NCBI GenBank assembly: GCA_027451985.1
Contig: DAIDHS010000019.1
Coordinates: forward strand, 1-51,717
Direction: 5' to 3'
DNA length: 51,717 nt
Source: Elusimicrobiota bacterium
GTDB taxonomy: Bacteria > Elusimicrobiota > Elusimicrobia > UBA1565 > UBA9628
The notes beneath the pieces were generated by a model, which saw only the letters and a list, made by a program, of their open reading frames with translations, was not told where the DNA came from and did no database searches. This document shows, in pieces, positions 3,869 through 6,072 of this stretch. Each line of letters starts with the position of its first letter. Within the stretch, counting starts at the first letter, position 1. The translations under genes were made by a program, and so were the position numbers.

Positions 3869-3892
3869 AAAAAACAGGCTTTAACGCGCCTG
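3869..3892 (-). terminator. Rho-independent terminator after the Arg-rich lipoprotein gene
   Basis: On the minus strand CAGGC, an 8-nt loop, GCCTG and then six Ts. It lies just downstream of the lipoprotein stop codon (3911) and upstream of hpnJ. It should separate the lipoprotein transcript from the hopanoid operon. The stem is only 5 bp. Confidence 0.6.
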
Positions 3893-3910
3893 GAATTTTC
3901 CGCGAGCAGC

Positions 3911-4816
3911 TTAGTCGTCCCGCCGACGCCAGCGCTTGGGGCGCCGGGGGCGGACGACGCGGGCGTGGCGGACGGGGCGGCGGCGCCGCTGGAACCATCG
4001 TCTGCGCGCGGGCCTGTAGGGGCGGCGGACGCGGTGAATCGGCCGCTTGAACGCGCGGGGGAAGCGCTGCCGCACGCGCGGCTCGATGGTGGACCACGTC
4101 GTGCGCGTGGTGCGCAGCTGCGGATGCTGGACATAATAAGCCCGCATGGGCCGGGCCACGGCGGTGACGTTGTTGATGTAGGTTCTGGCCGCGACGGAGC
4201 CGGGCGCGTAGACGTAAGTCGGCGACAAGATCACGATCTGCTTTTGATAGGCCACGTACTGCCGGGCGAAGAAGAAATTGACGTCGTCCGTCACCGGGGG
4301 CGGCGCGGGCGCGGGGGCCGCGGAGGCGGACGCCTCGGCCTCGGGATTTTGCGCGGAGGCGAAGCTCGTGAGCTGCGGCGAGCTGCCGATGAAGTCCTGA
4401 TAGCGCTTCAACTCCTCCATGAACGGAGCGCTGGCCAGGGCCTTAATCTGCGCGGGGTCGACCGTGTTCTGGGCCTGCACGCACGCGTCGTAGTTGATGG
4501 CGACGGTGGCGTAGCCCTCGAAGCTCCCGTTGGCGTCCGCCACGTAATGGTTCTCGACGCGGGCGCGCTTGGGCACGAACGAGCATTCGTTCGCGAGGTC
4601 CTGGATGGCCATGCCCTCGGCCGCGAATTGCGCCTGGTTGGGGTTGAACTCCTGGGCTTCGCCGAGGTAGACGATGTAGCCGTTGTCCACGAGGCGCGCC
4701 GGCTCCTGGGTCCAGGCCGGCCGGCGGGGGACGCTCGCGCAGCCGCCGAAGACGGCGATGAGCGCGAGGAAAATCGCGGCGCGCGTTTCTGCGGGATGGC
4801 GGGCTATTTTCCCCAC
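3911..4816 (-). CDS. LPP20-like lipoprotein with an Arg-rich tail
   Basis: A 301-residue predicted lipoprotein: basic n-region, hydrophobic core, lipobox-like FGGC with the lipidated Cys near residue 26. The following ~100 residues (AWTQEPARLVDNGYIVYLGE onward) resemble LPP20/Plp-type lipoprotein domains with a YLG/EAQ pattern. A low-complexity Ala/Pro linker sits near residue 165. The last ~60 residues are extremely Arg-rich (for example RRRWFQRRRRPVRH), which is odd for an envelope protein. The start is GTG at 4816, placed where a promoter would start the RNA. Function unknown. Confidence 0.7.
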   Translation of the reverse strand: MGKIARHPAETRAAIFLALIAVFGGCASVPRRPAWTQEPARLVDNGYIVYLGEAQEFNPNQAQFAAEGMAIQDLANECSFVPKRARVENHYVADANGSFEGYATVAINYDACVQAQNTVDPAQIKALASAPFMEELKRYQDFIGSSPQLTSFASAQNPEAEASASAAPAPAPPPVTDDVNFFFARQYVAYQKQIVILSPTYVYAPGSVAARTYINNVTAVARPMRAYYVQHPQLRTTRTTWSTIEPRVRQRFPRAFKRPIHRVRRPYRPARRRWFQRRRRPVRHARVVRPRRPKRWRRRDD

Positions 4817-4822
4817 GCGGGA

Positions 4823-4828
4823 ATTATA
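4823..4828 (-). promoter_or_regulatory. -10 box (TATAAT) of the Arg-rich lipoprotein gene
   Basis: A perfect TATAAT on the minus strand ends 6 nt before the GTG start at 4816. No convincing -35 is visible at 16-18 nt. The transcript would begin at or next to the start codon, leaving no leader. Confidence 0.5.
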
Positions 4829-4937
4829 CTACTTGGCGCTCTCTTCTTGAGTCCGCCGCCGCCTGCGGCCCTTGTCTAAGGTCACAAATTGGGGATGCGG
4901 CTTTCGAGCGCGTCGGCCGGAATGAGGGCGTCCATGC

Positions 4938-5204
4938 TCAGGCCTTGGGCCTAGGGCGAAAGCGCGCGTTGAGCCGGTCCTCGATCCACATCTTGATGAC
5001 CGCCTGCCGGGAGACGTTCAATTTCACGGCCTCGCGGTCCAACCGGGCGACCATCCAGGCGGGGAAATCCACGTTGACGCGCTTGACCGCCGTGGCCTTG
5101 CCGAAGTCGAGGTAGGGGAAAAGGTCCTCGCCCCGCTCGAACTTGGCGTCGAAGGCCGCCGCCGATATTTTTTTAATGGCTTTTTTCCCCGATGAACGCT
5201 TCAT
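4938..5204 (-). CDS. brnA: BrnA-family ribbon-helix-helix antitoxin
   Basis: An 88-residue protein starting at MKRSSGKK. The C-terminal part (VNVDFPAWMVARLDREAVK, then NVSRQAVIKMWIEDRL) is the ribbon-helix-helix module of BrnA/CopG-like antitoxins. A GGGAG-type ribosome-binding site lies just upstream, inside the toxin remnant. BrnA antitoxins neutralise BrnT, a RelE-fold ribonuclease, and repress their own operon. The reading frame stays open further upstream, but this Met is chosen because the overlap with the end of brnT is the usual BrnTA arrangement. The partner toxin here is broken, so this is an orphan antitoxin. Confidence 0.8.
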   Translation of the reverse strand: MKRSSGKKAIKKISAAAFDAKFERGEDLFPYLDFGKATAVKRVNVDFPAWMVARLDREAVKLNVSRQAVIKMWIEDRLNARFRPRPKA

Positions 5205-5313
5205 AAATTCTCTCCCACCGGCCGTCGGCGCGGTGGCAGCTGATGAGCCTGATGACGGCGCCCCGCCGCGTGTTCGCGGCGTCCTTCGCCGGATCGTATT
5301 CAAACGCGTCCAT
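5173..5313 (-). pseudogene. brnT: Internally deleted BrnT toxin remnant
   Basis: A 46-codon frame too short to be a working toxin. Its start, MDAFEYDPAKDAANTRR, matches the N-terminus of BrnT (family pattern FEWDPxKAxxNxxKH). After GAV it continues as IRLISCHRADGRWERIYEAF, matching the C-terminal RIISxRxAxxxERxxYE part. About 50 central residues are missing between them, yet the frame stays open and its end overlaps brnA as in intact loci. I infer an in-frame internal deletion that disarmed the ribonuclease while keeping promoter, operator and antitoxin. Confidence 0.75.
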
Positions 5314-5318
5314 AGTAA

Positions 5319-5333
5319 GTATAACAGTTATAC
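5319..5333. promoter_or_regulatory. Palindromic operator upstream of brnTA
   Basis: GTATAAC-A-GTTATAC is a perfect inverted repeat with 7-bp arms around one base, 5 bp upstream of the brnT start. It contains a -10-like element. BrnA-type antitoxins autoregulate through such palindromes, so this is the likely operator/promoter. Seen directly; the binding is inferred. Confidence 0.6.
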
Positions 5334-5439
5334 CATCATGAATCAAGGCGTCCCGCTTTGTCTACGACTTGCCCCGCGCGAAAGTTCCGCCGCCAAAAGA
5401 GTCCGGCGCGCCCTTGAAATCGGGGGGATTGCCGCCTAG

Positions 5440-5630
5440 ACCTGCCTAGACACCACCCCACCTATAGGTCTACCTACCACCCCCCACCTAGGTGGGGGGT
5501 GGTAGGGGTGGTGGTATACACCCCCCTAGACATGTCTGAAAGGGAAAATATAAGCGGTTATTTGGGGGGACCACCCTAGACACCACCCCCACCTAGGTAG
5601 GGGGTGGTGGGGGTGGTAGGTGTCTAAACC
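5440..5630. repeat. Cluster of GC-rich palindromes
   Basis: This non-coding stretch holds a perfect 34-bp palindrome (5473-5506, centred on CCTAGG, arms of C-runs pairing with G-runs). A second imperfect hairpin (5581-5609, also centred on CCTAGG, one bulged base) is flanked by inverted TAGACACC (5577-5584) and GGTGTCTA (5619-5626). The block TAGACACCACCCC recurs at 5447 and 5577 as a direct repeat. G-runs on the right arms could also form G-quadruplexes. No coding potential was seen from 5314 to 5652. Confidence 0.8.
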
Positions 5631-5652: not shown

Positions 5653-6072
5653 CTAGGGCGGCTCCATGATCTGGCGGATGGCCTCAAAGAGAGACAGGAT
5701 GTGCTTGTCATGTCTTTTCAGCTTCCTATCCATTTTCCGCTCAAGATCCGCCAGCTTTTGCGCCAGTTCCTTGTGCGTGGAGATGATCTCCCGCAGCCGC
5801 ACGAATGCCCGCGCGATCTGGATGCTCGCCTCGATGGCGATGGGGGTATGCAGAACGGACGAAAGCATCACGGTGCCGTGCTCGGTAAAGACATAAGAAA
5901 GATGGCGCCGCCCGCCGCGCCCGCTCTTTGAGATCGCGGATTGCGATCTCAAAGACATGGTCTCCTCTTTCGTCAGCCGGACGTCCTGCCCAAGCTCGGC
6001 TGGTCGCAGCCGTAGAGTTGGGCGATTGAGCGGCAAAAAACTTCCCTTGAAAACGCGGCGTGGGAGGGCCAT
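5653..6072 (-). pseudogene. Truncated/frameshifted ORF6N-domain protein
   Basis: The frame from RLTKEETMSLRSQ through GGRRHLSYVFTEHGTVMLSSVL, the amphipathic IQIARAFVRLRE helix, to the closing FEAIRQIMEPP is the C-terminal two thirds of an ORF6N-domain (phage antirepressor-like DNA-binding) protein. The first ~45 residues of the open frame do not fit the family. In another frame just upstream the sequence reads IAQLYGCD, like the family's DLAxLYGV motif. The N-terminal part has therefore been shifted out of frame and partly deleted. I call it a decayed gene; a short product from an internal start cannot be excluded. Confidence 0.7.

Follow-up and report, generated by a model that had tools for sequence, protein, structure and literature searches.

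Whether orphan antitoxins are junk or antidotes that have been kept is a question on which one group of loci, described here, bears. The locus that raises it lies in an Elusimicrobiota contig of 51,717 nucleotides (hereafter the window, 51.7 kb), where a complete brnA antitoxin gene adjoins a brnT toxin frame of no more than 46 codons. We asked what was lost from this module, what was retained, and whether the same has happened in related genomes.

Anatomy of the residual brnT frame and of brnA

Analysis of the minus strand of the window indicated a residual brnT gene of 46 codons and a stop (5173..5313, start at 5313, stop at 5175-5173), in which the start, with FEYDPAKDAAN, is joined in frame to TRRGAVIRLISCHRADGRWERIYE... 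and 48 core codons are gone. Alignment with ten full-length relatives revealed that the gap is exactly 48 columns wide, lies between the conserved N15 and T64, and leaves the invariant residues of both retained pieces in place. The original prediction had described a toxin frame that keeps both BrnT ends while its centre has been removed in frame, and the single 48-codon gap between two significant pieces agrees with it; it had put the loss at about 50 central residues, of which the loss itself stands and the size is to be corrected to 48. We rejected the idea that the gap arose from a frameshift followed by a restart, since the alignment requires one gap and no change of frame.

The score of the N-terminal piece was reached by none of 100,000 shuffles, and no other of the 80,598 six-frame windows attained 70% of that score. 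For the C-terminal piece, which was matched by the full-length BrnT of the relative G017 (E=8e-8), none of 20,000 shuffles reached the score. The prediction was to be given up if neither half resembled BrnT; both halves match the BrnT of relatives above shuffled sequences. Neither Pfam nor NCBIfam made a BrnT call for the 46-aa frame, so its identity rests on these relatives, and the alignment to PF04365 that had been proposed as a check gave no match to the family model. Sequence searches of Pfam, NCBIfam and the PDB with the frame gave unrelated matches only, for example xylanase repeats. A search of the whole genome (a 95% complete assembly) with PF04365 returned no match at E<=1.

A complete PF04365 fold carries all invariant positions; in the window 48 residues are absent, and six of the 14 positions that are invariant in 29 full-length relatives fall in the missing part. 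The predicted structure of a relative's full-length BrnT (mean pLDDT 92.8) consists of a strand, two helices, four strands and a last helix; on this model the loss takes the whole of helix 2, together with the end of helix 1, two of the strands and the greater part of one more. A model of the 46-aa chain alone, which is weak (single sequence, pTM 0.40), combines a helix with a hairpin. For the ribonuclease activity of Brucella BrnT the residues D6, E7, K9, R41 and E78 are reported to matter (PMC5086665). Judged from the models, the 46-aa product is expected to be non-toxic and incapable of adopting the BrnT fold.

The antitoxin gene brnA (4938..5204, minus strand; codons 5204-4941, stop 4940-4938) encodes 88 aa and is full length. 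Its product matched NF047399 over residues 13-78 with 89.1 bits (E 1.5e-25), against a curated cut-off of 60, and its frame shares an overlap of 32 nt with the brnT remnant. The expectation of an intact BrnA beside a disarmed toxin, with the overlap kept, was thus borne out. A type II module has toxin and antitoxin both open; here the toxin core is deleted, and the locus is a disarmed toxin with an orphan antitoxin. The window comes from a draft assembly of 107 contigs, in which 144 bp might have been dropped during metagenome assembly; we regard such an error as extremely unlikely, given that the junction is clean and in frame and that comparable deletions occur in many other assemblies, including the strain-titled record of Acidithiobacillus sulfurivorans RW2.

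Operator, promoter and translation signals

The perfect 15-bp palindromic operator named in the original prediction is retained at 5319-5333 as GTATAAC-A-GTTATAC (GTATAACAGTTATAC), with two 7-bp arms around one central base, and is conserved across the phylum. It is the sole match in the window at <=2 mismatches, the mean of 100 shuffles being 0.00. Three further motifs were read by eye on the minus strand: TTGATT (5341..5346), TATACT (5318..5323), which overlaps the operator, and GGGAGAG (5210..5216), which lies within the retained 3' end of brnT. By their resemblance to consensus sequences, we take these to be the likely -35 element, -10 element and BrnA ribosome-binding site, respectively. 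The spacer between the two hexamers is 17 bases, and TTGATT is present in eight of nine orthologous loci of the genus g64 and reads CTGATT in the ninth (L042).

The operator and promoter-like hexamers are both present, and the operon may be autoregulated. A repressor bound at the operator would block polymerase, since the predicted -10 element overlaps it. The ATG of brnT lies near the expected start of the transcript, which would be near-leaderless.

Distribution of brnT losses in Elusimicrobiota and beyond

A BrnA profile search gave 50 matches in 43 of 340 Elusimicrobiota genomes. All 50 loci were inspected individually, and the upstream stretch of each was scored with a purpose-built BrnT profile. 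The gene brnT was open in 31 loci and broken beside a full-length BrnA in 15, and both genes were damaged in the other four (L024, L025, L037 and L038). The profile itself rates 32 loci as full; L008 has a stop near the start, which leaves 31, among them L019, where the contig ends within BrnA. Of the BrnT matches in these genomes, 24 exceed 100 bits; every one of these adjoins a BrnA match, and the next match below them (G093:C33) stands at a contig end, so that its BrnA status cannot be known. Outside the phylum, 61 loci were considered, namely the best 80 of at least 350 confirmed minus 19 Elusimicrobia-type duplicates; among these best loci BrnT was full in 47 and not full in 14.

The genus g64 holds nine orthologous loci with similar BrnA, of which L041, L043, L047 and L049 keep brnT and L040, L042, L044, L045 and L046 are without it; the breakpoints of these five all differ, and the 15-bp operator is unchanged in all nine. 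Inspection by eye indicated that in L044 the start codon was removed along with the deletion, that in L045 the start is changed, and that in L046 the frame is shifted, with the 6-base repeat AAGCGG at the junction. The losses of brnT in Elusimicrobiota were shown to be many, independent and parallel. In L038 (G054:C111) an open 80-aa frame results from a deletion that has joined the beginning of BrnT, without a change of frame, to the C-terminal portion of BrnA. Shuffled flanks at the g64 loci had suggested integron cassettes; no integron recombination site was recognised there by eye, and the idea was dropped.

Constraint on BrnA after toxin loss

Omega was estimated for BrnA with a purpose-written codon model on the g64 tree, broken tips being compared with the rest. 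The two values were virtually the same, 0.123 for the broken tips vs 0.121 for the rest, and omega=1 on the broken tips was rejected (2dlnL 25.5). The upper limit of about 0.25 implies that at most about 15% of the broken g64 branches can be unconstrained. For the single tips L044 and L046 omega=1 was not rejected (2dlnL 2.78 and 2.64). A model of 34 loci, 13 of them broken, gave omega 0.080 vs 0.083 and an upper limit of 0.10; its branch lengths were fixed in proportion to the nucleotide tree, which makes its limits rough, and it excludes L024 and L025, the two loci of clade 1 whose BrnA is damaged, as well as the 14 clade-2 loci. The operator of clade 1 is perfect in 11 of the 13 broken and in 18 of the 21 intact loci. 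The retained brnT pieces of the window gave a tip omega of 0.036, with omega=1 rejected (2dlnL 14.4) on a tip that is saturated; that these pieces still look constrained hints at a recent deletion in the window.

Two explanations fit the constraint: BrnA remains in use, or all losses of the toxin are very recent. Our preferred reading, to which we give a probability of roughly 70%, is that the locus is a type II brnTA module deleted of its toxin core, in which BrnA is probably a self-repressing orphan antitoxin kept, at least for now, as an antidote. The deletion would have left the promoter, the overlapping BrnA operator, both brnT ends and brnA, whose translation would rely on a separate ribosome-binding site within the residual brnT. 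Repression of its promoter by BrnA most probably continues, and the protein may have been kept for the time being as an orphan antitoxin able to neutralise an incoming BrnT, that is, for anti-addiction. Two findings stand against the antidote: the 95% complete assembly is without any BrnT for BrnA to neutralise, and the four loci with both genes damaged indicate that BrnA does decay in time.

By the established logic of such modules, loss of the antitoxin before the toxin would harm the cell, so the toxin would go first, and this order needs no function of what is left. It is possible, at somewhat less than even odds, that the locus is in plain decay: the toxin was lost recently, BrnA and its operator are a functionless remnant that has not yet eroded, and the rapid removal of orphan loci means that all those observed are young. 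The four doubly damaged loci, the little change in the brnT pieces of the window since the deletion and the internal deletion, noted by eye, of the neighbouring ORF6N gene all agree with decay. However, decay requires that all 13 independent broken tips be very recent, under omega limits of 0.25 (g64) and 0.10 (34 loci), and it has to account for an operator that is still perfect at 11 of 13 broken loci.

The 46-aa short form

The original prediction had also raised the possibility that the short peptide is itself selected, with conservation of the short form among relatives as its sign. Among the 50 Elusimicrobiota BrnA loci no relative shares this short form, and sister lineages have gutted brnT by frameshift (L021 and L046) or by loss of the start codon (L044 and L045), so that this part of the prediction was not supported. 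Eleven deletion alleles with both module flanks present (L001, L004, L020, L021, L023, L040, L042, L044, L045, L046 and L122) were compared, and three of them (L001, L023 and L122, by eye) are open from the native start; about one in three is expected by chance, which speaks against a selected short peptide. The retained 3' piece of brnT is explained by the BrnA ribosome-binding site and start that lie inside it, and the 5' piece that has been kept lies next to the promoter and operator.

Retention of the 46-aa mini-BrnT for its own sake, perhaps as a corepressor or as a non-toxic partner of BrnA, has in its favour that the frame is preserved, that the invariant residues of both pieces are present, and that an in-frame mini-BrnT with these two ends, 48 aa long, occurs independently in the Acidithiobacillus isolate. 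We nevertheless consider such retention very unlikely, in view of the few alleles open from the native start, of the g64 loci that have dispensed with start codon and frame, and of a 46-aa model that is not a BrnT fold. The Acidithiobacillus locus (L122, A. sulfurivorans RW2, of another phylum), with the mini-BrnT upstream of BrnA, is the sole similar in-frame case; its genome gave three partial BrnT matches, none above the cut-off, and in a plasmid search with this mini-BrnT most of the matches were C-terminal, with many falling on proteins annotated as BrnT.

A site at which toxin-antitoxin genes are exchanged

The segment 4858..5348 of the window is absent from the sister genome G001, whose neighbouring protein is 99% identical. 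The flanks are common to both, 3885-4858 at 96.7% and 5348-5435 at 91%, and between them G001 holds 1,236 bp with other toxin-antitoxin genes. Since the same flanks enclose other such genes in the sister, the site swaps toxin-antitoxin genes, and each of the two species has an antitoxin beside a gutted toxin. The sister locus (L145, 1620-2870 of G001:C157) comprises a Gp49/HTH pair and a dnstrm_HI1420 antitoxin. Of its HI1419-type toxin the start (by eye) and the C-terminal third are left, the latter matching TIGR02683 below the cut-off over positions 62-94 of 95, and a perfect palindrome, ATTGTAGCC-TGTG-GGCTACAAT, precedes the HI1420 antitoxin module at the promoter (by eye). Among 70 HI1420 matches, 30 related loci were classified by eye: the toxin was open in 21 and broken in eight, and one was cut by a contig end.

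No BrnTA was found at the shared site in G001, and no BrnA match in its 86%-complete assembly. This bears on the proposal, made for orphan antitoxins generally (PMC7192599), that they become regulators of other host genes, to which an intact antitoxin-type protein constrained without its toxin would conform. For BrnA we consider the role unlikely, given this result in the sister genome and one operator only in the window; the domestication to a regulator that had been predicted was not borne out by any second operator there.

Returning to BrnA as a self-repressing antidote, we put forward tentatively, and with less than even confidence, the wider view that a locus reduced to its antitoxin is a recurring state favoured by selection at toxin-antitoxin exchange spots, where self-regulated antidotes would immunise the cell against addiction by mobile elements. 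If this is true, toxin-core deletions that leave operator, promoter and antitoxin protect a lineage from mobile elements with related toxins. That a single family shows so many independent losses of the toxin, with the operators unharmed, makes selection on the toxin-less antitoxin directly testable.

Comparison with known systems

The order of toxin and antitoxin, a BrnA-type antitoxin and promoter-proximal control are shared with the BrnTA module described for Brucella abortus (PMC11980606, PMC5086665), unlike which the window's BrnT is without 48 core residues, including the six invariant positions. In Pseudomonas, Table 1 of PMC7280312 gives brnT as truncated or absent with a brnA homologue kept in 10 of 43 brnTA loci; the corresponding count in Elusimicrobiota is 15 among the 46 loci whose BrnA is undamaged. 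That brnT can be lost and brnA retained is therefore already known; added here, in another phylum, are the anatomy of mapped deletions, the number of parallel losses, the conservation of the operator and an estimate of constraint from a codon test on BrnA, of a kind that our limited literature search did not find elsewhere. Degeneration of a chromosomal toxin of a different family is cited for ccdO157 of E. coli (in PMC7280312 and PMC2654758). Antitoxin genes without a functional toxin are reported as common in Klebsiella and E. coli, with anti-addiction proposed (PMC7192599, PMC10790755), in similarity surveys whose cited parts give no per-locus deletion anatomy; anti-addiction is presented in PMC2654758 as an established model.

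Sequences flanking the module

Remains of ORF6N flank BrnTA on both sides (4850-4936 and 5653-6072, minus strand). Of one, reading by eye found the start (MDALIPADALESRI) together with a piece from further along the gene; the other matches PF10543 (33.0 bits) and corresponds to the C-terminal part. ORF6N fragments resembling these also precede several BrnTA loci of g64 (by eye). Between BrnTA and the ORF6N remnant, a G+C-rich palindromic repeat (CCCCCACCTAGGTGGGGGGTGGTAGG...) occurs twice, at 5439-5617. No link between it and the BrnTA module was made. The repeat folds strongly as a single strand (z -5.4), and the matching stretch of the sister genome stops before it, at 5435.
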